Source: Sarcocystis neurona (taxonomy: Eukaryota; Apicomplexa; Conoidasida; Eucoccidiorida; Sarcocystidae). Taken from it: a stretch of 64,000 bases of DNA. Both the position numbers and the translations under genes were made by a program. The notes under the pieces are model-generated. The model had not been told where the DNA came from, did no database searches, and saw only the letters and a program-made list of their open reading frames with translations. Positions 14,237 to 54,090 of the stretch are shown piece by piece (position 1 is the stretch's first letter; each line of letters opens with the position of its first letter). Location of the stretch: the NCBI GenBank assembly GCA_000727475.1, contig KL647320.1, forward strand, positions 979,072 to 1,043,071. The letters run 5' to 3'.

Positions 14237-17200
14237 TATATACGTTGTTTCCTCTCCTCTCTGCAGAAGCGTTCGTCTCTCCTTTTCCTTCCTCTCTTTA
14301 TAGAGATACATTGATGCATGCAGACAACATGCAGATCGACAGAGAAACGTTTGTCTCCCTATTAAAATACGACGTACAGAAGTGATTTCCTCTCTTTTCC
14401 CCGCCCCATATATACACACATACGACCCCGTTCGTCTATTCAGCGAACGACACATGCGGACATACATACATGCAGCTGCACGTGCTGTAGACGAGAAGAA
14501 AAATTGTTGCACTGCCTGCTGCTGGTCTGCTGCATCTGCTGCGACTCCTCTTTCCCTGTGTTCCTTCTGCTGCTGCTACTCTCCCTGCCACAGTCCCCCT
14601 GCTGCTCGTGCTCCTGCGCTGCTGCTGCTCTTGCAGATGCAGTCCTCGTGCGGCTGCGCTGCAGCGGAGTTGTTCCTGCTGCTCTCGCTGCGACCCCCCT
14701 CCTGCTGCTGCTCTTCCTGCGGTGCTGCTGCAGCAGCTCTCCTGCTGCTGGTTTGCCTGTGTTGCTGCTGCTCTCGCTGCTGCACGTCAAGCTGCTGCTG
14801 CTGCTTGGTGGGCGGACCGCCCGCGCTAAGGACTTCTTACCGCGGTGTCTGTACGCCAGAACCATATCGTAGTCAGAGCCTTCCCCGGCTGCTGTCTCTT
14901 CTTCTTCATCGTCCTGCTGCTGTTCACGCTTCTCCTCCTCCTCATCCTTCTTCTCTGTGTCCTTTTGCTTCTCCTTCTCCTCCTTCACCTCCTCCTCTTC
15001 ACCGGACGCGGCAGCAGCAGCTGACCGCTCCTGGCGCGTCCTGCTGCTGCTGCTTCTTCCTTCTTCGCTTTGCTGCTGCGGCGGACTCTCTCTGCCGCGG
15101 CTGCTGCTATCAACGTCGCTGCTTGTGCTGCTCGCTGCTGCTGTTTCGTCTCCTTCTCCTTCTTTTTTGCTGCTAGTGTTGCCGTTCCCGCCTTCAGAAC
15201 TGCTGCCGCCGCTATCCACACTCTTTTCGAAACTGCTGCTGCTGTTGCTGCTGCCGTCGCCCGCAACTTCAGTGTTCTTTCCCCGCTCCTCTTCGTCCCG
15301 TTTCTCTTCTTCTCCCTCTGTCTTCTGCTTCTTCTTCGCGTTGCTGCTGCTCTCCAGCTGCTGCCCCTCCTGCAACGGCGACGCGACTCTGCTGCCGTTG
15401 CTTCCGTCAGTCTCGCCTTCCCCCCCCACCTCTTCTTCCATGCTCTTGCTGCTCGACTCGCCGCTCTGGCTTCCATTCCCACTGGTACTGCTAATGCTGC
15501 TCCCCTCCTTCCCAGCCTCTCCCTCCTCGCTGCCGCTGCTGCTGCCACCTCCTGACGACCCCGCCGCCATCCTCGGGCTCGTCCCGCTGCTGTCGCTGCT
15601 GCTCTCGCTGCTGTCCTTGCTGCTGCCGTTGCCGGCGCAGCAGCTGCTGCTGCTGTCACTGCTTCCGCCATCTGCGCTTTTCTTCTTCTGCTGCTCCTCT
15701 CCGTCCTCCTTCTTCCTCTTCTCTTCCTCCCCCTGCTGCGGCTCCTCCATCTCCTGCTGCTGTTGCTGCTGCGTCTCCTGGCCCGTGCAGCTGCCGCCGA
15801 GCTTCTTCCTCCCCCCGCGCTCGCTTCTGCCGCTGCTTTTGCTGTTCCTTGATCTCCACACAACGACCGTGCCGTCCGCGCAGGCAGCAGCCAAATATTT
15901 GCCCGTCCCCGAGAAGGCAGTACAAATGACTGACGTGCTGCTTGCCGTCAAAAATTCCCGTCGCTCGCCATCACACGTCCACACCCCTACATCCCCAGAC
16001 TCGTACCCCGTGGCCAGCAGCCTGCCGTCACTCTGCAAACCAGCGAAACGGTTAAACGGAAGGAAACGTGGAGGGGACGAAGGAAAGGAAAGCAGCAGAC
16101 GTCCAAAGAAGGAGAAGCCACCCGGTCACTTCGAAAAAGCAACAGACGAAGGACGAAGGTGACGACACCACCACCACCAAAAAGAAGTTGACAAGAAGAC
16201 CGGGCGGACGACGAGCAGAAAAAAGGAAGTCGAACGCGGGAAGACAACATGGACTGCGGGGAAGACGACGAAGAAGTCAACGTGCAGAGGAGAAGCAAAA
16301 GAAAGGATGCTGCAGCGAGACGAAGGAGGAGACGAGGAGGAGAACAGAGATATACAACAAAAAAAGAGCAAACCAAAACGAGAAGTTGGGAGGGGCGGGA
16401 TATAAAAGGAAGAGAGGCGAAAACAGGAGGAAATACTGGCAGAGAAAGGACAAGAGCCGATACGACGAGCGTCCCATGGATGGTGGGAAGGCAACAAATG
16501 AAACTGAGAGATATGTGGCAGCAGAAAAAGAAGACGAGCAGCACAAGGAAGGGACAGAAGAGCGGAAGGGGAGGAAAACGAGAAAACGAGAAAGTGGGAG
16601 AAGCAGACGAGAAGGCAGTGGAGGAGGAACACGAAGAACACATGCGAGACGAAAGGGAGAAAAAATGGAGACGGGAGACACGTACAGGAAGGGGGGGACA
16701 GAAGAAATGGTCGCGAAGAGATACGAGAAGAAAAGGAAGATGGTGAGGAAAACGAAGAAAAAGAAGAAGAACGCGGTAGATAATAAAGGAGGGGACGGAA
16801 TCGATGAAAAGGGGGACCTTCGGAGAGAAAAGTGGGTGAGAGCCGAGCTGCGGCAGTTCACAAGACGACGGGGACGACCGGGAAAAGAAGAAAGTTCGGA
16901 AGACAGCCGGCGGAATCGCCAGCAACCGGGGCTGCGTCTGGAGACGCCGGAAAACGGCCGAGGGAAATATGAAGACGGAACGGAAGACGACGACAGCAGA
17001 CACACGAATGACGGGGAGATCGAAGGCGCCAACCGTGAGGAAGCGGGATGAAGAGAAGGGCAGCGGACGACGTCGCGGGGTACGGGAAGAAAACAAGACG
17101 TACATACACAGAAGAGACAGAACGAAAAGGAGAAGAAGAAGAACCTACGGGTGGCAGGGCCCTTAATGTAATACTGCGAGCCCACGTATCACACGAGCAG

Positions 17201-33689: not shown

Positions 33690-33969
33690 ATCCTACGTTT
33701 CGTGAGAGGCAGGCGAATAACTTTCCGTTCATCCGTTTTTCGGGTTTTTCCGGGTTCTTCCGTTGCTTCTTTTCTGCAGACGCTGCTCGTGTTCCGGCTC
33801 GCCAGCAGAGACTCACTGCCGCGTGGTAGTACTTTCTTCTCGCTTCACCGCGGCGTCTGTTCCTGCATCCTTGCGCACCGTCTATCGCGCCGACAGCCCG
33901 TTTCGTCCCGTGCGGCGCTGCTCCGTCTCGCTTCTCTCTCGCCTTCCCGCCGCGTTTTTCTCGGAAAAG
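33690..33969 (+). promoter_or_regulatory. Pyrimidine-rich leader of uL4 (putative 5' UTR/promoter)
   Basis: The 280 bases before the uL4 ATG are rich in C and T with runs such as CGGGTTTTTCCGGGTTCTTC, and end GGAAAAGATGG at the start codon. Pyrimidine-rich leaders are common on ribosomal protein genes. An intron in the leader cannot be excluded (TTTTCTGCAG ends at 33780). The transcription start is not determined. Confidence 0.35.
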
Positions 33970-35322
33970 ATGGCGACGTGCCGCCCAGTTGTGTCTGTGT
34001 ACTCCCCCGAGAACGGGGCGCCAGTCTCGTCGGCGCTGCTGCCGGCAGTGTTCTGCGCGCCGCTGCGACCGGATCTGGTGCGCTACGTTCATGCGAACGT
34101 GGGGAAGAACCGAAGACAGGCGTACGGCGTCTCGCCGTCGGCGGGCTACCAGACCAGCGCCGAGTCCTGGGGCACGGGACGCGCGGTCGCGAGAATTCCT
34201 CGCGTCCCAGGCGGCGGGACGCACCGCGCCGGACAGGCAGCCTTCGGAAATATGTGCAGAGGTGGGGGCATGTTCGCGCCGAACAAGACGTGGCGCCGGT
34301 GGCATCGCCACGTAAACCTGAACGAGCGGCGCCACGCGGCCGCGGCGGCGATTGCGGCGACAGGCCTGCCGGCGCTGGTCATGGCCCGGGGTCACCGTGT
34401 GGGGAATGTCAGCGAGTTGCCGCTGGTGGTGTCCGACGACCTGCAGCAGGTCACCAAAACCTCTAAGGCGCTACAAGTGCTGCACACGCTCGGTTGCGAG
34501 CCTGAGCTCGAGAGGGTGAAGGCCAGCAGCAAGCAGCTGCGCGCCGGCAAAGGCAAGATGCGCGGTCGCAGATACAACTTGCGTCGCGGACCGCTGATTA
34601 TCTACGCCGAGGACAAGGGGATCACGCGCGCCTTCCGTAATCTTCCTGGGGTTGACTGCTGCCACGTCGACCGTCTCAGCGTGCTGCAGCTGGCGCCAGG
34701 TGGCGCGCTCGGGCGCTTCTGCATCTGGACGGCAGCCGCTTTCGAGCGACTGCAGCTGCTCTACGGCAACAGCAGACCTGCAGGCACCAGGACCGGAACA
34801 GCAAGCGTGAGCAGTAGTGCAGCGGCTGCGGCAACGGACGGCGGCGCAATACCAAGTGCTGCTGCTGCGGCTGCTGCAGCAGCGAGCGGAGAAGCGGCTC
34901 TGAAAAAGGGGTACCGCCTGCCGCGGGGTCTCATGACCAACGCCGATCTCGGGAGAATTATCAACTCGGACGAAGTACAGGCAGCAGTGCGGCCGGCGAA
35001 GAAGTGCGCGGAGAAGCGGCGCGTGCAGCACAAGAACCTGCTAACCAACCACGCGATGCTGTGCAGGGTAAACCCGGCGGCGGCCCACTTGAAGCGACTC
35101 GCGCGCCTCGCACAGAAGGCCGGCAGCAGGCAGTACGCCGTCGTGCAAAAGAAGAAGAAGAACACGCTGCAGCAGCACAAGGAAAATCGCAAAGCTGCCA
35201 AGTCTTTCGCCCAGGAAATCGCCACCGCGTTCTCCGACAAAATGGCCCAGGAACTTGAAAAGCAGGCGCGCCAAAAAGCCGAGATGGCGGGCGCCATTGC
35301 CGAAGCCAGCAGCAGCGAGTGA
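33970..35322 (+). CDS. RPL4: 60S ribosomal protein L4 (uL4)
   Basis: This cytosolic large-subunit protein is a single exon of 450 codons. The start MATCRPVVSVYS matches the eukaryotic N-terminus. The conserved core follows: PLRPDLVRYVHANVGKNRRQ, VARIPRVPGGGTHRAGQAAF, GNMCRGGGMFAPNKTWRRWH and RHAAAAAIAATGLPALVMARG form the internal loop that lines the exit tunnel, then GKGKMRGRRYNLRRGPLIIY and FRNLPGVD. About 45 Ala/Ser/Thr/Gly-rich residues (roughly 268-312) are inserted between LQLLYGN and YRLPRGLMTNADLGRIINSD, where other eukaryotes have a short link. The C-terminus is the usual Lys/Gln/Ala-rich tail. The insert is small beside those of the neighbours, as expected for a protein packed in the ribosome. 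Confidence 0.97.
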   Translation: MATCRPVVSVYSPENGAPVSSALLPAVFCAPLRPDLVRYVHANVGKNRRQAYGVSPSAGYQTSAESWGTGRAVARIPRVPGGGTHRAGQAAFGNMCRGGGMFAPNKTWRRWHRHVNLNERRHAAAAAIAATGLPALVMARGHRVGNVSELPLVVSDDLQQVTKTSKALQVLHTLGCEPELERVKASSKQLRAGKGKMRGRRYNLRRGPLIIYAEDKGITRAFRNLPGVDCCHVDRLSVLQLAPGGALGRFCIWTAAAFERLQLLYGNSRPAGTRTGTASVSSSAAAAATDGGAIPSAAAAAAAAASGEAALKKGYRLPRGLMTNADLGRIINSDEVQAAVRPAKKCAEKRRVQHKNLLTNHAMLCRVNPAAAHLKRLARLAQKAGSRQYAVVQKKKKNTLQQHKENRKAAKSFAQEIATAFSDKMAQELEKQARQKAEMAGAIAEASSSE

Positions 35323-39542: not shown

Positions 39543-40759
39543 TCAGCCGGACAGCTGCAGCACCGCCTCTAAGACAGTTTCAGGATATTGGCTGCTGATG
39601 CGTCCTGCGCCGACGCATTCGAGTCCCCGATATATTGCAGCTACTTGTCCGGGGGCGAGTCCTGCGTCAATCGTCGGTAGTTCTACCCAAAGCGCGCAGG
39701 CGTTGCTGCCTGCAGCAACAGCAGCAGCAGTCCCTCCCATGTGCTTTTGCACAAGACGGGAGCGCACACTGCTTTCTATCGTCCTGCCGCTGCTGCTCCT
39801 GCTGCTGTCGCTGCTGCTCCTGCTGCTGTCGCTGCTGCTACTGCTGCTGTCGTTGCTGCAACTGCTGTTGCTCCTGCTGCTGCTGCTGTTGGAGGGACTT
39901 TTGCTGCTGTGGGTCGCCTCGCGCAGCAGCAACAGCGGCAGCGAGGAGGCGCCGAGAAGACGCAGCGCACGCGGCGGCTGCTGCTGCAGCTGCTGCCACA
40001 GATACACTCGCGCGCCGCGATGTATGGCGACGCATGCAGTGCCCCCTCCGTGTCTCACCTGGACGTCGAAAAGACCACTGCTGCTGCTGCTGCTGTCGCC
40101 TCCGCTGCCCTCCACCAAGACCAGACTGCTTCTGTTGCTGTTGCTGCTGCTCTGGCGGCTCTGCAAGAGGGGGCGCTTCGCTACTGCAACGGGAGGAGGA
40201 GCACCCCTGCAGTTGTCCACCGTGTCTACTCTTTGGTGCTGCTGCAACAGCGGCGGCTTTCGAGCTGCTGCGGCAGCACCTTCAGAAACATCAGCAGCTA
40301 CCCCGGCAGCCGCAGCAGAAGGACAAGGAGCAGCCTTAGGAGCGAGAGCAGGAGCAGGACTCGCAGAAGCAAGGACAGCAGCAGACGCAGGATGGGAAGC
40401 AGCAGCAACAGCACCACGTGCCAAAGACGCATGACGCGGAGCAGCACCACTGTGACCAGCAGGAACAGCAGCAGCAGCAGCTACAGGGAATGCAGAAGAA
40501 GGGTAAGAAGAAGGCGAGGACAGTTCTGGAGGAGGGCTGCCTGCTATCCAGTGTACTTTTTCAACAAGTAGAAAGCGCCGCTGCAGCACGAGCAGCAAAC
40601 CGAGTGCTGCTGCAGCGTCACCCGCAGCGCTGGCTGCAGCAAGTGCTTCACAATTGTAGCCGACAGATGCAGCTGCTGCCGTTGCGGCAAGCTGCTCTGC
40701 TTCGCTGACGACAAAGAGAGAATTCGACGGCGGATGTTTCCCTACTACCACCCACCGAC
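39543..40759 (-). CDS. mnmA: MnmA last exon (C-terminal domain)
   Basis: The acceptor CTCGCAG|GT starts RWVVVGKHPPSNSLFVVSEA. VEKVHWIAGSPP, VQVRHGGGTACVAI and ALWVELPTIDAGLAPGQVAA through CVGAGRIS follow, up to the stop at 39545-39543. These are the C-terminal strands of TRMU/MnmA (human [29 protein letters not shown]). Three Ala- or Ser-rich inserts separate them. Confidence 0.9.
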
Positions 40760-43700
40760 CTGCGAGAAGTGCTGCTGCTGCGCCGTTGCGAGACAGTCTC
40801 TCGCTCCGGTGCAGCCCTGCTGCTGCTACTGCTGCCCGAACGACCACGTCGGCAGCAGCGTCTCCTCTGCAGGCAGCAGGTACGGCAGGGCAATTAGAAA
40901 CAGACCTTTCAGCACCAGCCGCAGGGGCAGCAGCACCAGCAGAAGCAGCGGCAGCAGAAGATGAAGCGACGGCCACAGCAGCAGAAGCAGCAGTGAGTTC
41001 AGGGAGGATAGCAGCAGCAGCCGAAGCAGCAGCAGTCAAAGCAGCAGCAGTCGACACAGCAGGAGCCGGAGCAGAAGCAGCGGAACGAGAGGCAGCACCG
41101 GAAGCGGCAGTCCCAGCAGGGGGAACCGCTGCAGCAGGACCAGCAGCAGCAGCAATCGAAGCAGTCGTACAAAGAGAACAAGAGGACGAGGAAAATGAAG
41201 AGGAAGAGTTGCTGCTGTTGCGGTCTAGGCGGTAGCAGGGAGATGTTTGCTGCTGCAGGACGGGACCACCCCACAACTGACGATCCTGCCCATTTGCAAG
41301 GATACATGAGCGCTGCTGCTGCTGCTTCTCTTGTAGCTGCAGAGGAACCGCCTCCCCTTCAAGCCGCTGCTCTCTGCCCTGGTGACATTTTCGGTCCTGC
41401 TGCTGTTGCAGGTGTACTTTCGACGACTGCCGCTGGCTGCTTTGATTCGATTCCTTCTCTTCTTCTTCGTCTTTTGACTGGTGCTCTTGTTGCTGCGGCA
41501 CAAACCAGGGCTGCTCCGGCGGTGTCCTTCCCCGCTCCTGCTGCTCTGCTTCCTGCTGCTGTGTTGCCTGCTGCTGCAGCTGCTGCTCTACTGCTTGCTG
41601 CGGCTGCTGACCTTGTGTCTGCAGCGAAGAGGACGGAGATTCTTGCTGCCGCTGCTGAGGGACCTCCTGTTGCGGCCACTGGCCCTCCTCCTGCTGCCGC
41701 TGCTTCTGTGCTTGTTGTGAAGAAGCCGGCTCCTGCTGCTGCTGCAGCGTCCTTCTCTGAACGGGATACTGCTGCTGCTGTGGCGCCTGCTGGGAGATAG
41801 AAGCCCAAGAATTTTCTGTAGCAGCTCTCTCAATCGCCGAGCCTCCAGCAGCAACAAGCATATCCACAGGCCCTGCAGCAACCGCAGGCGCAGCAAAATT
41901 GTTCCGTTTAATAGTTCACTGTGAACAGCAGCAAAGCCAGCAGCAGCGAAGCACCGGACCTAGTAGCACCAAAGGAGATCCAGCAGCAGCAAGGCAGCGG
42001 GCCAAGCAGCAGTAAAGCAGGAGATCCAGCGGCAGCACAGCAGCGAAACCGCCAGCAGCAACGCAGCGAAACCAGCAGCAGGACGGCAACGGACTCAACA
42101 GCAGCAAAGCTCAGACGTTGGTATATCTGTTCTGCAAAGAAGAGCAACCCGACAGCAGCAGCCACAGCAGCAGACAGCTGTTTCTTTATTTTACCTGCAG
42201 CACACCGGCGTGTGTACTGCAGCACGAACGACAGAAACAAGCAACACGGCAGCAGCAACAGCAGCAGCAGCAATAGCCGCACGGACCGCAATACCAGCAG
42301 GGACGGCAGCACCAGGTGAAACGGCAGCAGCCGCTGGAACAGCAGCAGCAAGCAGTCACATCAGAAGCAGCAGAAGCGGCAGGGAACTAGCAGTGGCACC
42401 AGCAGCACCAAACGTGGGGTAGCTGCGCTGCAGCAAGAGAAATGAAGAAGAGTCGCAAAGCAGTGACCGTCCCACCAGAACGAGGTGCAGCGGCAGCAAG
42501 CACACATGCGACACGTGGCGCTAGTTCTTCCAGTACCCTCGCGCGAACAGCAAAAGCTGCAGTATTTGCAGCAGCAGCTCCCAGCAGCGCAGCAGCAGGA
42601 GCAGCAGCAGCAGTCGACAGGCTAGCAGCAGTAGCAGGAAGTTCTACGAACTAGCAGCAGCAGTGGTAGCAAGCGAAGTGGAAGGAGTAGAAATAGCTAG
42701 CTTTGAAGCGGCAGGGACCGCAGAAGCAGGTCTTAGGCTACAATACATGTACAACGCATGCAGCAGCAAGAGCGTTGAGCTCGGGCGGCAGCACACCAAC
42801 GCGTCTTCATTACGGCAGCAGGAGGAGACGTATTGCTGCGGGAGGAAAAGACGTTTGAGAGAGGCGCAGCAATACCAAGAGCAACAGGAATAGCAAGAGA
42901 GGCGGCGCTTTGTAGCAGGAGTCGCAGGAAGAGGGCCAGCTGCAGCAGCAGAAACAGCAGTAGACCAAGAGCAGTGAAGCAGGAGCCACAGTAGCAGTAA
43001 TGGCAGGAGCAACAGCAGCACCAATAGCATGAGCAAGAGCGGCAACGATAGCGGCAGCAATAGCAGCGGCGATAGCAGCAGCTGCAGTAGTGGCGACGGA
43101 TTTAGTTTCAGCCCCACAGCAGCTGTCGAGTTTCCAGCAGCAGCGGCAGCACTGCAGAGGGGGCATGAACCAGTAGGAGCAGCAGCAGCTATGACGGCAG
43201 TGATCTGTCATGCGTGCTGCTGCAGCAGCAACAGTAGTGCGAAGTCCTTTTAGTGAGTCGCGCGCAGGAGTACCGGTAGATGTCCCAGCCTGCTGGAGCC
43301 CGGGAGAAGGAGAAGCATTAGCAGCAGCAAGAGGACGGGAAGAGGAACGGTGTGTTTCTCTGCGTTGTTGCTGGCGCTGCATACGTCGTAGTAGCAGCGG
43401 ATCGAGACAGGGATTGACCGCCTTGCGCTGGCCTGCAGTAAAGCGCCAGAGGCCCGCATGCGTGCCCACGCGCATGCAAGAGGGAAAGTGATAGATCGGC
43501 CCCGGGCAGGCAGGAAGGAAAAAGTCAAAGAAAGACGAGAGAGACAGCTGCGGCTGCAGAAAACACAAGCCCTGGCTATCCGGTCGAAGCGCCGTGGGCA
43601 GGGAGAAATGCCGTGGTGAAGCCAGCGCGCGGACCTGGGAAGCAGCAGCACAGCAGCAGAGAAACGTTGCAGCAGCAGCAGCGGCGCCAAGCAGCAAGGA

Positions 43701-46700
43701 ACAGAAGCAGGAGTGGGAGACGCAGAAGCAGCAGCAGCAGCAACAGGGCGCTTCAGCAGCAACGAGGAGGCTGAGACACGCGCAGAGAGAGGACGGCAGC
43801 CTGAAGCAACAGTTGCAGAAGCGGAAACAGCAGGCGTGGCCGGACGCGGGCAGCAGCAGCAACAGCAGCAGGCGCGGAGAAGAGGAAGAAGATGAAGGAG
43901 TAGCTGCAACAGCACAGAAAGGAAGCAGAGAGAGAAGCAGCAGCAGCTGACCAGCCACGCGGCAGCAGCAGCGGGAGCCGAAGCGGAGGATAGGATTGGT
44001 GCGATAAATGCAGCGGCAGCAATAACAGCAGATGCGGAGCAGCAGCGGCAGCTGGTGAAGGCAGCAGCAACATTATACAAATGCATAGCAGCAGCAGGGT
44101 CGGTAATTTGCAGCTGCAGCGGCAGCAGTACCACGTCAACAACTGCTGCAGCAGAGACAACAAAAGAGAGACCCGCAGGCTGGGCAGCCACACGTGCGAA
44201 GTCCAGACACAGACACTGGCACGAGAGCAACAAGTGCAGCAGCAGCACTCCGCAGCAGAGCAGCAGCTACGGCCAAGAAGAACAAAAATAAGGAGAAGGG
44301 AAGGAAGGGGCGCAGCTGGACGTAGAGCAGCAGCTCGGGCACCAGGGAGAAGTGCTGCTAGCAGAAACTTTATATAGGACGGAAAGTCGCGTACCAGAGA
44401 GAGATGTACCATCCCTGCATGCGCACAGCGGCTTTCTTCTCTTTAACGACGCTGTCTCACGGCTCTTCTGCTGCGCTGCTGCTGCTGCTGCTTCCTGCGG
44501 TGGCTGCTTCCTGCAGCTGTGGCTGCCCGCTTACCTCGGATTTGAGCAAACTTCCAACAGGAGTGATGAGCCGCTGCAGCTGATGTTGTCGCAACCCGCT
44601 TAAAAAGTAGGACTGATCCTTCAGCGCATCTGCTGCTCTATACAGCTGTGACGGCCTTCCTGTTGTCTCCCCTCCTCCTCCCGGTGCTGCGTCCTCTTCC
44701 CCACTTGACCGCTCTGCAGAAGCTGCACCGCCACACGCATGCGCGACGCGCGCGTAGTGGCCCGAAGCTACCCACGTACGCGAGGTGCTACTGCTGCTGT
44801 TGCTGCTGCTGTCGAGAAGGTTGAGGAAGCCTCCGAATTTGACGCGTTGGTTGCACCACCAGTCGGGATTCGGCGTGTAGCCCGCCCTGGGTGCACAGCA
44901 GCAGCAGCAGCAGAGACGGCAGCAGCAGCCAGAGCAGCAGGAGATCAATAGCAGCAGCAGCCACAGCAGCAGCAGCAGCAGGAGCAGCCACGGCAGCAGC
45001 AGCAGCAGGAGCAGCCACGGCAGCAGCAGAAAAGCGACAGGAGGAGTAGCAGCAGCAACGCAGCAGCAGCAAGGCATTTGCTGCGATGACAGCGGAGCAG
45101 GCTTGAGAACAGCAGAACGTATGGGAGAGTCGCACCAGCAGAGAGGCGCTGCAGGAGCAAGGCACCACTGCAGCAGAGGGGCAATCCTCGCAGCATCCCT
45201 CTACGTGCGGCAGCGGCCGTATAAAGCAGCTGCAGCACCAGCAACAGCGGTTCGTAAAAAACGGAAGAGCGAAGAACCCACACGACAGAAGAGCAGCACC
45301 ACCAGCAAGAGAAGGGAAGCAGCAAGGCGTCGGGAACATGCAGCAGCAGTAGCAGAACTAAAAGGGAGACAGAGCAGCAGCAGAGGCATCTGCGCGGCAA
45401 TGGGTAACAATACAACAAGGCAGCTGCAGCAGCCGCAGCAGAAACGGCAGCACCCGCAGCAACCCCGGCGGCAAGAACAGCTGCAACCGCCTGTCAACGC
45501 AGCAGTAGCAGTAGCCAGATAAGCAGCAGCAGCAGCAGCGGCAGCAGCAGCATTAGCGGCAGCAGCAGCACCAGCGGCAGCAGCAGCATCAGCGGCAGGA
45601 GCAGCATCAGCGACAGGAGCAGCATCAGCGGCAGGAGCACCATCAGTGGCAGCAGCAGCATCAGCGGTAGCGGCAGCATCAGCGGTAGCACCAGTTTAGT
45701 AGTCAGCGTGTTGCTGTTGCTGTTCACCTTGCCTCGTCGAGCATTTGTTGAACCACTCCTTCCCAGTACGCCTGTTGCAGCGGCAGAACTTCGAGAGGAA
45801 CTCGGGCCTGGCGACAGACAGCGTCAGCATACCGCACGTCCTCCTCCCAGCCGCAGCTGCTGCTGCTGCTCCGTAACCAGTCGCTGCTGCCGCGTTTCTG
45901 TTCCTGTGACTGCAGCAGCAGCAGCTCTGGCAGCCAAACTTTGATGTAGAAAGCGCGTAGATTTCTGTGGCCCTGCTGCTGCAGCAGCCGCAGCGCCACA
46001 GACGAATCCACGCCTCCGCTCAGCAGCACAGCAACTTCTTCTTCCGCTCCTATTCCTGCTCTCACAGCTGCTGCCGCTGCTGCTGCTTCTTCTCCGCGTG
46101 TCGCTGTTGTTGCTGTCTCTGAGGGGGCTTGGTGCGCTCCCTGTGCTGCACTGCTGCCTTGCTCTCCCTCTCTTCCTCCTGCTGCTGCTGCTGTACTGTC
46201 TTCTGCTGCTGCTGCTGTCCTGGCTTCCAACACCACCGCTTCACCTGCTCCTGCTGCTCCTTCGCGAATTCGCCGTGGCCCTGTCGCAGAAGATGCTGCT
46301 GCTGCTGGCGCTTTTCCGTCCTCTGCTGCTGTTTTTACCGCTGCTAGAGTTTTTCCGTCTCGTGAGACTGTTGCGCCGTCTGCTGCTGCTGCTGTTCCAT
46401 TTCTTCTTGCTGCTGGCAGATCGGCTTCCGCTGCTGCTGTCGCTGCACTGTGGCCTGCTCCTAAGCCTGCCTCCCCTTCTCTTTCACCTTCAGCTCCTAC
46501 GCCTGCTGCTGCTGCAACTGCTGCAGGTGAGGCTGACATGGACGCTGCTGCTTCTGCGTCACGCGCAGCTGCCGTGAACGCTGCTGCGTCTGCGTCACGC
46601 GCAGCTGCCGTGGCTGCTGCAGCCGCTGCTGCTGCGGCAGGACGAGTTGCTGCTGTTGGTGCTGCAGCGAGCGCAGCAGCAGCTGCTGCGACAGGTCCAG

Positions 46701-49700
46701 TTCTTGCTGCTCCCGTGGACAATTCCTTCCCTGCTGCTGTCGTTAGTTCGTGGGTTGTAGACGACCCTTCTGCTGGACGCGCTGCTCCTTTGTGACTTCC
46801 TATTTTTCTCTCTCTGTTCCCGACAAGACTCGCGAAAAATCTTGCGCTGCGGAAGTTCTCACCAGGCTGCTGCGCAGAGTGCTGCTGCTGTTGTTGCTGC
46901 TGCGCCTGCTGCGCCTGCCGCTGTCGCTGCTGTCCCTGCTGCTTCTGCTGCTGTTGCGGCTGCGCCCGCTCCTCCTGCTGCCCGTACTGCTGGTGTGTTT
47001 GCTGCTGTTGCTGCTGCTGTTCCTGCGCGCGCTGCTGGGGGTCCTGCTGCTGGAGCTGCCTCAAGTGCTGCAGGAGATTGCAGCTCTGCTGCTGCTCTCC
47101 GTCTTTCGGTTGACGGTCGCGTCCGGCCTGGTGCAGCAGCAGCTGCTGCTGTTGCTGTGGCTCCCCGTTTCTCAGCAGACATCGAGCCTGTTGCTCGTGC
47201 TGCTGCAGCTGCTGCCGCACCTGCTGCTGGACGGTCTTGAGTATATGGTCGAATCCCAGAGCGTGTTGGAGGGGCAGCAGCAACGATCGGGACGGCGCCT
47301 TTGGCTGCTGCTGCTGCTTTTGTTGTTTCTGCCACCACCCCTGCTGCTGCTGTGTCTGCAGCTCTAGCTGTTGCTTCTGTGTTTGCTGCTGCTGCGACCG
47401 GACAAAGAGGAGTCCTGCGGCATGCAGAAATTCTTGAGTCTGCAGCAGCAGCAGCGCCTCTGGGGCAGCACCTTGGAATCCTCGCAGTAGCAAAAACAGA
47501 AGCCCGCGCACCAGTCCTGCATCTGCCGTCCCTTCTAAATGCAAGCGCTGCTCAGATGCCGCATATGTTAGCTGCTGTTCACCAGCCGTTTGCTCTGTTG
47601 CCGCGCTCGTCTGCTGCTGCTGCTGCTGGCTCGGCTGCTGTTGCTCGCGCCGCTGCTGTTGCTGCGGCTCTTGCTGCTGCTGTTGCTGCCGCTGCTGCTT
47701 CCGCGGGTAACGCTGACGCTGTTGCTGCTGCTCCAGCGGGTGACGCTGCTGCTGCTTCAGCGGGTGATGCTGCTGCTGTTGCTGCTTCTCCAGCGGGTGA
47801 CGCTGCTGCTGTTGCTGCTGCTGTTGTTGCTGCTCCTGCAGCGGGCGCTGCTGTTGCTGCTGTTGCTGGTGCTGCTGCAGCGGGCGCTGCTGCTGCTGCT
47901 GTTCCTGAGCTGGTTCTAGTTGGTGCCTGGCAACAGCAGCTGCAGCAGCTGCCGGCCGCGCAACTGCGACAGGCTCTGTCGGTCCAGGGCAAGAGGCAGC
48001 GACGCGTTTTTCTGCCGCCGCAGCAGCAGCTCTGCCTTTTGCGCCAAGGGCGGGGGACCATCCCACGGCAGCAGCCGACGCGTCGCCAGCAAACCCGGAC
48101 CCCCCCCGGACACGACAGCAGCAGCAGCAGCAACCGGCCGCTCCGCGCCAGCAGCTACTGTGTTTTCCTGTGAAGGAGCAGCAGCAGCAGATTTCCCGTC
48201 CCACGCTGCAGCGGGTTTCTCGTCTGCAGCAACAACAGCCTCTGTTTCATCCGCAGCAGGAGCAGGAGCAGCGTCGCTTTTCTTCAGAGCGGCAGCGGTC
48301 GCAGGTGTGTCTGCTGCAGCAGCAGCGGCAGCAGGCGGACCAGCAGCAGCAGCAGGCGGAGGCGCAGCAACAGCAGTAGGTGCACTTTCCTGGTGGCAAT
48401 GGGAAGGGAGGGCCCCGGCAGCAGCAGGCAACACCCAGGCCGCAACATACACCACTGCAGTGCATCCCGGAACGCGCTGCCACACGAGGTGTTGCCGAGA
48501 TATCCGCGACGTGGGCTGGGCCCGCGAAACTATCGTTGCTGCTTCCTTCTTCGAAGCAGCCGCCCCGGCCCTCTGCTTATCTCTTGAGAGCGTCTTGCTT
48601 CCTGCGACGCTGTGGAGACTGTCTTGCTCTGTTCCGCTTCGGGCACTTTGACATCCCTCCGCTGCTGCTGCTGCTGGTGCCGGCGCTGCTGGCGACGCTG
48701 TTGCTGCTGGCACTCCTGTTGCTGGTGCTGCCGCTACTGGTGCTGCTGCTGTTGTAGGTGCTGGTGCCGCTGCCGATGCTGCTGCTGATGCTGCAGCTGA
48801 CGCTGCTGCTGTTGGTGGTTTGGAGACTGTTGCTGCTGGCGTTGCTCGTGGGGGACAAACAGCAGCGCGAGACGTCGGGGTCTCAGCAAGAGCAGCTGCA
48901 GTATGGTCGGCAGCAGCAGTCGCATTCTCGGTAGCAGTAGCGTCACCAGCAGCAGAACTACAAGCAGCGGTAGGGTGGAGTGCGGTAGCAGTCTGAGAGG
49001 AGAGAGGAGAGAAGGGAGCAGCAGGCGCAGCAGCAGCAGCAGGAATAGATAGAGGAGGCGGAAGAAGGCACCCAAGGCGATGAAGATAAAGAAGTTTCTC
49101 CCGTGGATGAGAAAGCGAGCGCAAGGGCAGCAAGAGCCGCTGCAATGCTGGAGGGAAGAAAAAGGGAAACTCGCTACTTTGCTTCTGCTGCTGCTGCTGT
49201 TGCTGCACCTGCCTTCGCAAGTGCTGCACCTCTATGTGTTCCTCCCTATCAGTCGAGCACGGCGAGGCAGCATTTCTCTCTACTGCTGCTGCTGCTGCCG
49301 ACGCCGTCGCTGCTGCTGCGGAAATTGCTGGTGCTGCTGCAGGTGGTACAGCTTCTGTTTCTGCAGCCGCTGCTTCTTCCCACAGCGCGCCTCCAGCACC
49401 ACCACTACCTGCTGCTGCTGCAGCCCTAGGTATTCGGTCGGCTGCTGTCGCTGCTGTGGCGCGAGGAGCAGTAGCGCGGACTGCTGTGGCAGGAAGGCCA
49501 CCACCAGCACCAGTAGCAGCAGCTACAGCAGCAGCAGCGACAGCAGCAACTACGCCAGCAGGGTGCGGATGAGCTGCCCTAGCAGTTCTTCTTCCTGCTG
49601 CTGCGGAAGTGTCGCAAGGATCCTGCAGCTGCTGCTGCTGGTCAGGACCATCCTGCTGCAGCAGCCAGCGCCACTCTTCTGCGTCAAGCGTCTTTCCCTT

Positions 49701-49830
49701 CGCAGCAGCAAGAGCAGCAGCACGCGCTGCAGCAGCAGACGCACCAGAGAAAATATTGGCAGCTGCAGCAGCAGGTCCGGCAGGGCTGCGACGCAGGACA
49801 GCAGCCCAGCGGTGAGACGCCACGTCCGTA
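39543..49830 (-). CDS. mnmA: SufE-MnmA fusion: sulfur acceptor plus tRNA 2-thiouridylase, 5' end unresolved
   Basis: MnmA/TRMU adenylates U34 of tRNA and inserts sulfur from a bound persulfide; SufE carries persulfide from SufS. The SufE first half (PREKLLYLHRLG; RVPGCTAVVYV, acceptor Cys codon 48464-48462) is in one - frame. Its second half (RLHLEGTADAGLVRGLLFLL, then EFLHAAGLLF) is at 47547-47400 in a second frame that stays open to the MnmA P-loop SGGVDSSVALRLL (about 46020) and YADAVCRQARVPLEVL. MnmA exons join in phase: to 45728; 44886-44535 (AGYTPNPDWWCNQRVKFGGF, ASGHYAR, DALKDQSYFL); 43634-43385 (DSQGLCFL, FTAGQRKA); 40759-39543 (RWVVVGKHPP, VHWIAG, PGQVAAIYRGLECVGAGRIS). Both catalytic Cys are present (44855-44853 and 43565-43563). 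The enzyme is complete apart from Gln/Ala/Ser inserts. By analogy with other apicomplexans it probably acts in the apicoplast, but no leader can be placed. Two adjacent genes remain possible. Confidence 0.85.
40770..43384. repeat. CAG/CTG-rich MnmA intron
   Basis: The long intron between the two last MnmA exons is packed with interrupted CAG/CTG triplets, especially 40900-41160, 41300-41780 and 42230-42660. All frames on both strands stay open for long stretches but show no domain. Confidence 0.65.
43385..43634 (-). CDS. mnmA: MnmA exon with second catalytic Cys
   Basis: The acceptor TTCCCAG|GTC is phase 0. It encodes VRALASPRHFSLPTALRPDS, QGLCFL (the Cys199 equivalent), FFDFFLPACPGPIYHF, GTHAGLWRFTAGQRKAVNP. 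The chosen donor, CGAC|GTATGC, gives the phase 1 needed by the next exon; a weaker GT upstream (CCCT|GTCTCG) would also fit. Confidence 0.87.
44535..44886 (-). CDS. mnmA: MnmA exon with first catalytic Cys
   Basis: The acceptor GCACCCAG|G completes an Arg codon and the donor GAG|GTAAGC leaves phase 0. It encodes AGYTPNPDWWCNQRVKFGGF, then a Ser run, VASGHYARVA, an Ala/Gly/Glu insert, and LYRAADALKDQSYFLSGL to LLKSE. These match E. coli MnmA around Cys102, TGHY and KDQSYFL. Confidence 0.92.
44887..45727. repeat. CAG/CTG-rich MnmA intron with a roughly 20-bp unit
   Basis: This intron contains interrupted triplet repeats. At 45520-45700 a degenerate unit of the type AGCAGCGGCAGGAGCAGCAT is repeated about eight times. 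Exon borders on both sides are supported. Confidence 0.6.
45728..47560 (-). CDS. mnmA: SufE C-terminal half, Gln/Ala linker and MnmA P-loop (exon)
   Basis: One frame carries RLHLEGTADAGLVRGLLFLL (second half of SufE), about 460 residues of Gln then Ala-rich linker, then EEVAVLLSGGVDSSVALRLL, FYIKVWLPEL, the insert QEQKRGSSDWLRSSSSS, YADAVCRQARVPLEVL and YWEGVVQQMLDEA. The donor GCAAG|GTGAAC leaves phase 2. The 5' border is unresolved; many CAG acceptors are possible between 47560 and 48200. A non-repetitive stretch near 46850-46750 (NFRSARFFASLVGNRERKI) stays open in this frame. Confidence 0.85.
48400..49830 (-). CDS. SufE N-terminal half (upstream exon, borders uncertain)
   Basis: The non-repetitive blocks in this frame are LDAEEWRWLLQQDGPDQ (about 49700-49650), PALQRLLLPLRSLSHPREKL and LLYLHRLGCLLPP (about 49140-49060), and QHLVWQRVPGCTAVVYVAAW (about 48485-48425). 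The last two match the SufE pattern of an opening helix, then VxGC, with a roughly 200-residue Ala-rich insert between. The frame is open up to 53096, but triplet repeats and a pyrimidine-rich stretch (50180-50930) make the true start unclear. The donor should lie just after 48425. Confidence 0.7.
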
Positions 49831-52800
49831 GCGCACGCGCTCGCTACAGCAGGAGCAGCAGCAGCGGCAGCGACCCTGTGCAGAGACGGGACGCGCGTCG
49901 AGACAACAGCAGCGGGTGCAGCAGCAGTAGGCGTGTCGCGGAGGTATGGCCGCTGGGGCGCCGGCTGTGTGGGGTGGTGGGGTGTACGTAGCACACCGGA
50001 AAAAGCTTCGAAGCGGCAAGTTGGAGCCGCACGTCTTTCCCCAGGATCCGCCCCAGAAAACAGCAGGAAGGCCGAGCAGCAGCTGCTGACGGCTGCTGCG
50101 AGTGTGTTGTCTGTTGGCCGGCAGCAGCAGCAGGAGCCAGCAGGCGCGAGGAACGGAGACGCTCTGGGGCGGCGGAGTGCCGCTGGCGCTGCTGCAGCAG
50201 CAGCAGCAGACGGGCTCCCCTTCGACGAAGACGATAAGACAGACGGAGAAGCACAGCGACAAAGACGACAGAAAAGAGACGCCCCCACGAGGGAACGTGG
50301 CCGCAACGTAGGACGCAGAGGAGGAGAAATATGTGGAGAAGCAGCACAAGAAAACGAAGGAGATGCAGAAGAAGAAGAAGAAGGAGCAGCAGCACGTGTC
50401 GGAAGACAAGAAGCAGGAACAGAAGACGGAAGACGAAGATATTCCACAAAGAAAAAAGCGGAGGCCAGATGATGGTAAGGGCGAGGAAAAGACGGAAGCG
50501 CAGAGAGAAGAGAAGGACGGGGAATAATACGGGAAGAAGCGGCGGCGAGATGACGGGGAGGGGAGACGTCTCTCGACGAAGAAAGGGAAGGGGCGCCAGG
50601 AGGACGGGGACGCACAGCAGCAGCGATTCGCCGAGGCGCTGGGCCGCCGAAGAACGCGACGAGCGGCTGCTCGGCCGGAGACGGAGACGCCGCAGGCGGG
50701 GAAGGGGGGCGGCTGGGAGACGAGACGGCGGCGCATCGGCGGAGAGGACGACGAAGAGGACGTGCAGCAGATGCGACGGGCTCCCGAGGACGGGACAGAA
50801 AAGACGAGAAATATGCTGCCGGAACGGGACGCGTTTCGACCGGAAGAGACAGGAGAACTGCAGCAGCAGCAGCACCAAGTGGACGACGACTCCAAGGCGA
50901 GACGGGTGCGAGACGGGCCCTTCTGCGCGCGCCCCAGCGCAAGGCGTCTCCTTCTGAAGAATTACCCGCAGTATGCGAAGAAGAACACGCCGACGCGACA
51001 CTTCTTTCCACGCAGCAGAACCTCTGTGTACACGACGCCGCTGCGGCTGCTGTTGCCGCTGCTGCTGTTGCCGCTGCTGCTGCTTCCGCGTGCCGCACCC
51101 GTCGCGGGGGACGCGTGGCAGCAGAAGCAGCAGCAGGACAGCGCAACGACGTGGGGTTCCCTGCTTCTTGACAAATGGGCTTCACAGTTCTCGGGGTCAG
51201 GGCCGGCGGTCCAAGAAGAGAGTAAGGCCTGCGAGACAAAATGTCGCTGCTGCTGACTTTGTTGCTGGCTGGGGCTCGGAGCCGGTGGTGCTGCTGCGGC
51301 ACGGGAACGGCCGCGGAAACGCGATCCCACACGAAGGAGCTGCAGAAGAGCAGTTGCTCGCATGAGCAGGAACAGCAGCAAGCAGCAGACTGTCCACCTG
51401 CTGCAGCACCCCCCGTTGCTCCAGTTGCTGTGGTCGAAGAGAAGCCACTGCTGCCCTCTCTTCCTTTGGGCGGCACGCACCAGCCGTTGCGGTGTACGTA
51501 CACGTCATGCGGCCAACGAAGAAGCATACAGTCGTGCCGCCCCGGCTGTACGTCTCCTTGTAGCTTTTCTACAATTTCGTCCTGCTGCAGCACCAAATCC
51601 TCCCGCTTTTGGTGTCTCTGTCGCTCCTCTGCGATCTGCTGCGTCTCCGGCCTTTGCTGTTCCTCCGCCTGCTGTGCCTGGCATTCTTGCTGCTGCTCCT
51701 GCTGTTGCGGCCCCTGTCGTCCTCGGCGTTGCTGCTGCGGCCGCTCCTCCTGCTGCTGCTGCCGCCTCGGCGGCAGATGCTGCTCCTGCTTCCCTGGCTG
51801 TAGGAAGCTCCTGCGCAGCAGCACCCACTTCTCTCCACGTTGCTGCTGTGGCCACCGCGGCGCAGTCTCTCTGCGCTGCTGCCCTCGCCCCCGCTGCTGC
51901 CGCTGCTTCTCGTGCTGCTGCCGCTGTCCCTGCGGCCCCGACGTGTCCTGGTGCTGCGACTGCAGGCTCCAATGCCGCTGCGAACGACGCAACACAGTGC
52001 GCAGCCCCTGCTGGCGGACAGTAGCAGCAGGCGGATGCCGCCGTTGCGGCCAAGCCGAACACAAAGGAGAGGAGAGACGGCAGGGCAGAGAGGAAGACGA
52101 AGGAAAACGAGAAGCGTCTAGAGCCAGGGGTAGGACCTGAAGCAACAGCAGCAGGAACAGCTGCAGCAGAAGCAGCTGCGGCAGCAGGAGAGACGGCAGC
52201 AGCAGAGGCAGCAGCACGTGACGCCCACGTCTGCTCCTCCACGGCTGCTGCAGCACTTCCACCCGACGCCGTGACCCGTTTCTACGTCTGCTGCTGCCGC
52301 CGCTGCTGCCACTGTCAACGCAGGGCCGTCCGCGGTGACTGCAGCTGCAGCTGCTGCTCCTCGCTACGCAACCCCTAGTGCTGCTGCAGACGCCGCTGCG
52401 CCAGCTACGGCAGCTGCAGTTGCTGCTGCAGCGGCTGCTGCTGCTCCTCCTCCTCCGTCCCTGCGTTGTCGCCTTGCTGCCGGGACACTTCTCTCCCTTC
52501 GCTACTGCAGCATCACAGCAGCTGCCATCCCGGCCTGCGCACGTGAAACGCCTCCTGCTGCTGCTGCTGTTGCAACGGGTGGATCGGCTGCTGCAGCTCC
52601 CTGGGCGGACCAGCGCACAGAGTACTGCACTACTGCTGCGGTAGCTGCTGCGGCGGTAGCTGCTGCGGTGGGGGCTGCTGCTGCGGAAGGCTGCTGTGCT
52701 GCTGCTACGCATGCCGGCCCAGGCTCCTCCGCTGCTGCTGCGCCTGACGGCCCACGCTCCTCCATTGCTGCTGCGCCCATCGGCCCACGCTCCTCCGCTG

Positions 52801-53100
52801 CTGCTGCGCCTGATGGCCAACGCCCCTCCGCTGCTGCTGCGCCTGACGGCCCACGCTCCTCTGCTGCGGCTGCAGCAGCCGCACGCCCCAACACTCCCAG
52901 CGAGACGCAGGACACTACCGGCATTGTTCAGACTGCTGCCTCTGCTGCAGCTATCTCTGCTGCTGTGCCTGCCGCTGCTGCTGCTGCCGTTGCTGCTCCC
53001 CGTGTTGCTGCTGCTCCTGCTGTTGCTGCTCCCCGTGTTGCTGCTGCTGCTTCTCGCGTTTCTGTGACAACTAAACATAGATGTGGGAAACTCCACATAC
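49831..53100 (-). other. Possible 5' part of the SufE-MnmA gene, or spacer
   Basis: The SufE frame stays open here. At about 51640-51450 it carries non-repetitive, Gln-rich coiled-coil-like sequence (REDLVLQQDEIVEKLQ, then DCMLLRWPHDVYVHRNGW) that may be a true upstream exon. The stretch 50180-50930 is purine-rich on + and looks like intron. A competing + frame starts at ATG 51241 (MSLLLTLLLAGARS, good start context AGACAAAATG), so a small overlapping gene cannot be excluded. Confidence 0.3.
52723..52865. repeat. 33-bp in-frame repeat, four copies
   Basis: The unit GCTCCTCCGCTGCTGCTGCG plus 13 bases repeats at 52723, 52756 and onward. Read on the - strand it gives an 11-residue repeat (ERGPSGAAAAE). 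Whether it is translated is unknown. Confidence 0.75.
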
Positions 53101-54090
53101 GTCGATCCTCAGAAACATATGTAGACATGTAGACACATGTATACGTGTATAGATATATATATGTATTTCTCGATACTCAGTAAAATTTGTAGACATATAT
53201 ATATGTGGAAACGTGCACAGATTTGGACGAGGAAGCCGACAGATCCAGCAGCACACTTATAGTTGCGATATGTTTGGATGTGAGTCAGCAGCAGGCCGGG
53301 AACCGCAAGGGACAGAGAGAGTTTGCTGTTGCTGATGTTGTCCGGAGCAAAAACGTGAACTGGTGCTGGTGCAGATATAGAACGCGTCACCGCTGCGTCA
53401 CGCCTTGCATGCTGCTGCAGCTCCTTAGGCTGCTGCTGCCTTAGCTTCGCCTGTTTATCCTCCTTCTACTGCTGCAGCTGTGGTTGCTGCTGCTACTGAT
53501 GGGCACGCTGCTGTTGCTCCCAGGGATGCTGATGCTGCAGGTGCTCCTGCTGCCGCTATTTTAGCTGCCCCTGCTGCCGCTGCTTGAGCTGCGCTTGCCC
53601 GTTCTCCTTCTGCTGCTCGTGCTGTGGCTGGTGGTGCTGCTGGAAATGCCCTTGCTGCTGTTCCTGTAGCTACTGCTGCTGCTGCTTGACCTGCTGCTGC
53701 TGCTCGACGTGCTGCTGTGGCTCCTCCTGCTGCGGCTACCACTTTCGACGGTGCTGTCTTTGCTGCTGCTGACGCTGCTGCTGTTGCTGCAGCAGGCGAG
53801 ACACCTGCTGCTTTTGTTGTGCGCTTCTGCTTCAACGCCTACGTGCTCCGGCTGGTGCACCTGCCCTGCATCAGTCTATACAAAATTTTCTATATATGTA
53901 TATATATACTTCAACCGGTCCGTACACATATATACATATATATGTATAGAAGTGCATGCGCCTACCCACATATATATATTTATATATATGTATGTATATC
54001 TATACAGCCCCGTGTGCTGCTGGAGCGGTTGGTGTGCTGCCTTTGCGTTTGTATTATATGGACGCTGTGGCCGTGTTGCTGGGGTGGGTG
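53101..54090. other. Spacer with AT microsatellite and CTG tracts
   Basis: TATATA runs lie at 53130-53210 and 53890-54000 with CTG-rich sequence at 53400-53800 between. Frames in the CTG part are open on both strands. No gene can be supported. Confidence 0.4.

Follow-up and report, generated by a model that had tools for sequence, protein, structure and literature searches.

The locus described here is likely, in our judgement, to be a nuclear gene for a plastid-type MnmA (tRNA thiolase) with a built-in SufE domain, which would form the middle step of a sulfur relay from SufS through SufE to MnmA. At the level of sequence, we could demonstrate the order of the domains in one likely coding unit, the presence of all catalytic residues, their conservation among relatives, and descent shared with the MnmA of Toxoplasma.

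The earlier note on this DNA had left it undecided whether such an arrangement was described before. In fact, it is already in print, both for Toxoplasma (PMC9420914) and for Plasmodium (PMC10219651). Yang (2022) described Toxoplasma MnmA (TGGT1_309110) as one SufE domain followed by three MnmA stretches (PMC9420914), and Swift (2023) reported a SufE-like domain in P. falciparum MnmA (PF3D7_1019800), offered a relay from SufS as a possibility, and compared the SufE-like regions of the MnmA proteins of P. falciparum, B. microti, T. annulata, T. gondii and E. tenella (PMC10219651). As in these proteins, a SufE or SufE-like domain precedes MnmA at our locus and the catalytic motifs are the same; unlike in them, both the SufE domain and the linker contain Gln/Ala-rich runs. 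The P. falciparum domain was recognized by structural comparison (PMC10219651), whereas the spliced domain reported here exceeds the Pfam cut-off. Apicoplast localisation was shown for the published Toxoplasma and P. falciparum proteins, whereas ours is known from its sequence. What we add is that, as far as the sequences indicate, the fusion extends to Chromera as well as to diatoms and to red and brown algae.

Domains and exons of the locus

The window, i.e. the whole 64-kb stretch of DNA that was analysed (G000:C33:979072-1043071), is a part of a 123 Mb genome assembled in 74 contigs. The following features of the putative gene were located in it.

49059-49157, minus strand: probable N-terminal SufE helices, PPALQRLLLPLRSLSHPREKLLYLHRLGCLLP (collinear profile match, 1.9 bits, weak alone; in the frame of the Cys motif)
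48444-48482, minus strand: SufE acceptor motif WQRVPGCTAVVYV, containing QRVPGC (motif profile; Cys codon 48464-48462)
47383-47571, minus strand: SufE second half, RLHLEGTADAGLVRGLLFLLLRGFQG... (PF02657, 30.7 bits, and profile of fused homologues)
47206-47259, minus strand: conserved helix between SufE and MnmA, LGFDHILKTVQQQVRQQL (second collinear profile domain, 12.0 bits)
46039-47205, minus strand: Gln/Ala-rich low-complexity linker, stop-free, in the frame of the SufE second half
45728-46038, minus strand: first part of MnmA, exon ending at donor GTGAAC (PF03054, 58.8 bits)
46020-46000, minus strand: PP-loop SGGVDSS, within the first part of MnmA
44535-44886, minus strand: MnmA exon with NPDWWCN (PF03054, 76.8 bits; acceptor CACCCAG, donor GTAAGC)
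44855-44853, minus strand: codon of the first catalytic Cys of MnmA (NPDWWCN)
43385-43634, minus strand: MnmA exon with DSQGLCF and GQRKA (PF20259 on the spliced product)
43565-43563, minus strand: codon of the second catalytic Cys of MnmA (DSQGLCF)
39543-40759, minus strand: last MnmA exon, WVVVGKHPPSNSLFVVS ... LAPGQVAAIYRGLECVGAG, C-terminal barrel (PF20258, 24.9 bits)
39545-39543, minus strand: stop codon of the MnmA reading

It was claimed earlier that the second half of SufE and the MnmA PP-loop lie in one uninterrupted minus-strand frame, and this was borne out: the frame 48246-45727 runs for 840 codons without a stop and contains the SufE second half, the linker helix and the PP-loop. 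The first half of SufE, with its acceptor cysteine, was also found just upstream, as the note had it, the motif at 48482-48444 being in another frame. Since the Cys motif and the SufE second half occupy different frames, an intron between them is required. For this intron, the phase would be kept by either of two candidate junctions, 48451/47926 or 48435/47571; however, the similarity to Neospora and Besnoitia continues, by eye, slightly past both candidate donors, and therefore the true donor may be located later than either of them. Upstream of the Cys half of SufE and through it, at 47916-53108 of the minus strand, one frame runs for 1730 codons without a stop and encodes much Ala, Ser and Pro; a leader may be placed inside it. 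The remaining MnmA exons could be joined in phase to the C-terminus through three GT-AG junctions downstream of the PP-loop exon. It is uncertain where the last exon begins, as Neospora and Besnoitia show LAG ahead of RWVV, and the true edge may be upstream of 40759.

When the spliced product (junction 48435/47571) was searched with HMMs, as the earlier note had advised, it reached 39.1 bits with PF02657, exceeding the cut-off of 27 bits, which the stretch 47571-47383 also passed by itself. The same product gave 178 bits with PF03054, 32.3 bits with PF20259 and 27.1 bits with PF20258, all above the respective cut-offs. The residues expected of both families are in place, namely the acceptor cysteine of SufE in a GC motif (QRVPGC), the SGGxDS signature of the MnmA PP-loop, and the two catalytic cysteines of MnmA.

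Elsewhere in the window, a gene for ribosomal protein L4 was recognized at 33721-35322 on the plus strand (PF00573, 109.6 bits; PF14374, 82.5 bits), and a stretch of WD40 repeats, one of which is above the Pfam cut-off, at 14440-16125 on the minus strand.

A proposed route of sulfur to MnmA

In the proposed mechanism, SufS, a class II cysteine desulfurase, would load a persulfide onto the cysteine of the SufE domain (codon 48464), and this domain, held on the flexible linker as on a tether, would pass the persulfide to the MnmA domain. The MnmA PP-loop would activate U34 of tRNA-Lys, tRNA-Glu and tRNA-Gln, and the two MnmA cysteines would then form 2-thiouridine. We consider this path from SufS to SufE to MnmA the most economical reading of the locus.

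Delivery of persulfide sulfur to MnmA is common to the TusABCDE-MnmA system of E. coli and the YrvO-MnmA system of B. subtilis (PMC10219651); the former employs separate proteins and the latter is direct, with no carrier, whereas in the window the carrier appears to be fused to MnmA itself. The earlier proposal that the fusion is a one-chain stand-in for the TusABCDE relay was upheld in part. The fusion itself stands, and the three Tus-type families looked for, TusA, DsrC (TusE) and DsrE (TusC/D), were not found in a six-frame search of the genome, the control searches having given matches in 11, 1 and 8 of 14 genomes, respectively. On the other hand, transfer of sulfur within the chain, like the transcript, import into the apicoplast and loading by SufS, is what we infer from these findings. 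For the cysteine desulfurase family (PF00266, aminotransferase class V), 9 matches were obtained in the genome; they lie on contigs C14, C7 and C12, the match on C12 being weak.

MnmA matches in the genome were confined to this locus, and SufE matches to this locus and one site on contig C3, where the following two stretches were noted.

4646400-4646260 of contig C3, minus strand: second SufE stretch, second half (30.3 bits, above the Pfam cut-off)
about 4652016 of contig C3, minus strand: likely Cys half of the same SufE, QGCQSVVHVRAEY... (profile 4.4 bits; joined by eye)

The likely Cys half on this contig reads QGCQSVVHVRAEYRVFPNGAVRLYFRGSA. An intron of about 5.5 kb may separate the two halves of this SufE, and judging from these matches the genome probably encodes a standalone SufE besides the fused one.

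The relay fits what was reported for P. falciparum, in which loss of SufS or of MnmA disrupts the apicoplast and loss of the standalone SufE does not, SufS but not the standalone SufE being needed for apicoplast maintenance (PMC10219651). Such dispensability of the standalone protein would be expected if MnmA carries its own SufE. The connection between Fe-S assembly and tRNA modification was shown genetically in the same species, at SufS (PMC10219651).

One could also imagine that the fused SufE serves to activate SufS, or to supply Fe-S assembly, and is merely parked on MnmA, and that MnmA obtains its sulfur directly from SufS in the manner of B. subtilis. SufE is known to raise the activity of SufS, and Swift (2023) ranked the direct transfer from desulfurase to MnmA, as in B. 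subtilis, as the most similar mechanism, and put forward the SufE-like domain as no more than a possibility (PMC10219651). Moreover, B. subtilis MnmA introduced without its own desulfurase made up for the loss of MnmA in P. falciparum once in four attempts, and the rescued line had no significant growth defect relative to a line with YrvO (PMC10219651); thus, the SufE domain is not strictly required. However, if SufE were only parked on MnmA, its acceptor cysteine would not have to be nearly invariant, as it is among the relatives (see below), since a docking role alone would not need that. A standalone SufE is probably available in this genome as well. Finally, the MnmA of Babesia ovata retains the fused SufE (38.8 bits with PF02657) together with its cysteine, and two other piroplasms, Theileria parva and Babesia bovis (neither of them B. 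ovata), were reported to be devoid of SufA-E, SufB, SufC and SufD included, and to possess SufS (PMC4010437). With these observations in view, we regard the parked domain as an unlikely, though not negligible, explanation, and the relay as the preferred one.

A likely single coding unit and its relatives

From their sequences, SufE and MnmA appear to make up one chain in this coccidian. If they were instead two neighbouring genes, their apparent junction would be due to stop-poor, CAG-rich DNA. Long open frames are indeed common here: 355 of the 17,896 frames of the linker's length (2.0%) sampled within the window, which overlap one another, are stop-free, and 153 stop-to-stop ORFs of at least 60 aa overlap the region 39-53.5 kb. 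As CAG-rich DNA is so often free of stops, the open frame constitutes weak evidence, and we rejected it as sole proof of the fusion; the two other minus-strand frames of the linker contain 6 and 11 stops.

Stronger evidence comes from the conserved helix and from profile searches. A fusion profile, seeded with 82 fused homologues among which Toxoplasma, Neospora, Hammondia and Besnoitia were not included, matched one frame of the 64-kb window at three collinear sites, the SufE half, the helix and the PP-loop, with a total of 65.2 bits, the runner-up frame reaching 6.4 bits. Among all six frames of the window, the acceptor motif was the best match of the motif profile (E value of 5.4e-5 versus 0.03 for the next one). 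The helix, which lies between the two domains and in the same frame, resembles QGLxxMLRSIQRQVR of Toxoplasma and Neospora. Toxoplasma, Neospora, Hammondia and Besnoitia all have this helix, placed after the Cys motif and before the PP-loop. The comparison with other apicomplexans, also suggested previously, revealed SufE ahead of MnmA within a single predicted protein in Toxoplasma and Babesia, and the same was seen in Chromera; in Neospora, Hammondia and Besnoitia, the Cys motif and the helix precede the PP-loop. Four transcript-assembly (mmetsp) entries, P0018, P0022, P0035 and P0037, contain both domains in a single chain. With another SufE site present elsewhere in the genome, the two-gene arrangement seems to us very unlikely, and the fusion claimed at the outset is supported by the conservation of the domain order and of the linker helix, and by the many relatives in which both domains share a chain.

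The relatives were drawn from three protein searches (62, 4230 and 257 matches), which yielded 267 different proteins among the matches listed, and 206 of these contain the SufE second half. Among the matches listed, the fused proteins of coccidia are those of Toxoplasma, Neospora, Hammondia, Besnoitia, Cyclospora and most Eimeria entries, together with a partial model from Cystoisospora, and other alveolates are represented by Babesia ovata and Chromera velia. Fused proteins in the same set also come from red algae (Pyropia, Gracilaria, Agarophyton, Gracilariopsis, Porphyridium, Rhodosorus, Purpureofilum, Galdieria and Cyanidium), brown algae (Ectocarpus and Discosporangium) and diatoms (Attheya, Chaetoceros, Seminavis and others). 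Among the matches listed, no named green plant or alga shows the SufE second half; these green species include Chlamydomonas, Chlorella, Closterium, Nymphaea, Lactuca and Sphagnum, as well as Mesostigma and Mesotaenium, whose names were read from source codes. The 61 listed proteins without this half comprise, besides green ones, bacteria, the E. brunetti model, in which a part of SufE seems to be missing, and an Ectocarpus siliculosus model starting at the PP-loop. Many unnamed environmental proteins belong to either group. In some environmental fusions (P0013, P0020, P0024, P0029, P0033 and P0192) an extra SET domain (PF00856) was noticed within the predicted chain.

Like the protein of the window, the algal fusions (Pyropia P0045, Porphyridium P0094, Galdieria P0122, Ectocarpus P0008, and those of diatoms) have SufE before MnmA and possess the acceptor cysteine; they differ in coming mostly from photosynthetic groups, and those of Pyropia, Porphyridium, Galdieria and Ectocarpus are shorter, with 603-877 aa. 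Separate parts of the Galdieria protein matched solved SufE structures (3g0m, 35.5 bits; 1mzg, 34.3 bits) and solved MnmA (2der, 253 bits). The linker helix is present in Discosporangium, Porphyridium and Galdieria, and was not found in Seminavis by the pattern used.

The acceptor cysteine is retained in 195 of the 196 alignable proteins among the matches listed, the remaining one having Met; in this count, members were defined by the SufE second half and the Cys column was located by the seed-derived motif profile. A count of 82 out of 82 seeds with the cysteine was not used, being circular, as the seeds were chosen by a pattern that requires this residue. Ten fused proteins lack an alignable motif: seven begin at or near the domain, two come from rabbit Eimeria, in which RC replaces GC and the cysteine is kept by eye, and one is the partial Cystoisospora model, in which the acceptor cysteine was not found in the 120 residues searched. 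In the PF02657 search, Babesia ovata and Chromera (47.7 bits) are above the cut-off, Toxoplasma (23.6 bits), Cyclospora (20.8), E. stiedai (18.9) and E. tenella (18.5) are below it, and the E. brunetti model gave no match at all. That the fused SufE is a decayed remnant with no role in sulfur transfer, as might be suspected from these low coccidian scores, from the Ala/Gln-rich stretches interrupting the domain in the window and from the motif RC instead of GC in the pair of rabbit Eimeria, is scarcely credible in the face of a cysteine so consistently kept, also in the latter two.

No SufE second half was detected, with a profile made from plastid proteins, within flanks of up to 2 kb of the best 80 bacterial and archaeal MnmA loci among the matches listed in a scan with two peptide patterns. 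These relatives belong to Ignavibacteria, Spirochaetes, candidate phyla and others, and no cyanobacterium is named in their titles; this may be a hint, and only a hint, that plastid MnmA is not of cyanobacterial origin.

Descent of the fusion and its meaning

Trees were built from the MnmA core, with the SufE columns excluded. In both of them, descent shared with Toxoplasma MnmA was recovered, the window being sister to the Toxoplasma-Neospora-Besnoitia group (99/96 in the first tree, 99/93 in the second). Because of this placement, an Eimeria identity of the genome, which the CAG repeats had at first suggested, was rejected. In the first tree, which contained Babesia and from which five rows (Chara and four bacteria) were dropped as the PP-loop pattern missed them, the fused rows did not come together behind a single branch, nor was their base resolved; the group 'redline' took 3 changes and the group 'api' 2, and the Babesia branch was very long (2.53). 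The second tree was built without Babesia, Hammondia, E. brunetti, E. intestinalis, Nitzschia, Agarophyton, Gracilariopsis and Spirochaeta, and also without 6 of the 16 green rows of the first one. It held 10 green and 12 bacterial rows, the latter being 12 of the 35 cores which the pattern gave from the 80 loci. Here, in the absence of Babesia, the 24 fused rows, those of the window and the algae among them, made up one side of a branch (99/95; 200 of 200 bootstrap trees), and a single TM6 bacterium adjoined the fused set (81/89). No single branch set the bacterial rows apart from the others, and the root is weak.

Since the fused rows and those of the red plastid line are the same, the tree agrees with a single fusion that was then inherited along with the plastid; by itself, it also allows loss of SufE in green plants. 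Together with the distribution among relatives, this suggests that the fusion is an old feature common to red algae, diatoms and brown algae; its probable history is a single origin in the red-algal plastid line and arrival with the red-derived plastid. No report on algal SufE-MnmA fusions was found in the open-licence literature, and work elsewhere is possible. SufE-BolA and SufE-NadA forms are included in a survey of algal Fe-S factors, and the terms MnmA, thiouridyl and tRNA are absent from the main text of that survey (PMC8003979). Plant SUFE3 (SufE-NadA) and SUFE1 (SufE-BolA) resemble the protein of the window in that a plastid SufE is joined to a partner domain, and differ in the partner. 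SUFE3, which was described for the green lineage and for a few heterokonts, has a SufE domain of its own that can serve the cluster of its partner (PMC8003979, PMC6006212).

We are somewhat inclined to a still broader view, in which SufE-MnmA would be a general sulfur relay for tRNA thiolation in plastids of the red lineage, made once in a red-algal ancestor and carried by secondary endosymbiosis into diatoms, brown algae, chromerids and apicomplexans. It would have been kept in Babesia despite the loss of the Fe-S scaffold and of the standalone SufE reported for piroplasms, and green MnmA, devoid of SufE, would be fed in another way. The short fusions of red algae make such a relay testable both in vitro and in harmless organisms. 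Moreover, as named red-line proteins, and no named green ones, bore it among the matches listed, the fusion is a candidate marker of red plastid ancestry. If the proposed relay is true, MnmA of red-line plastids, the apicoplast included, would have a ready source of sulfur without Tus proteins.
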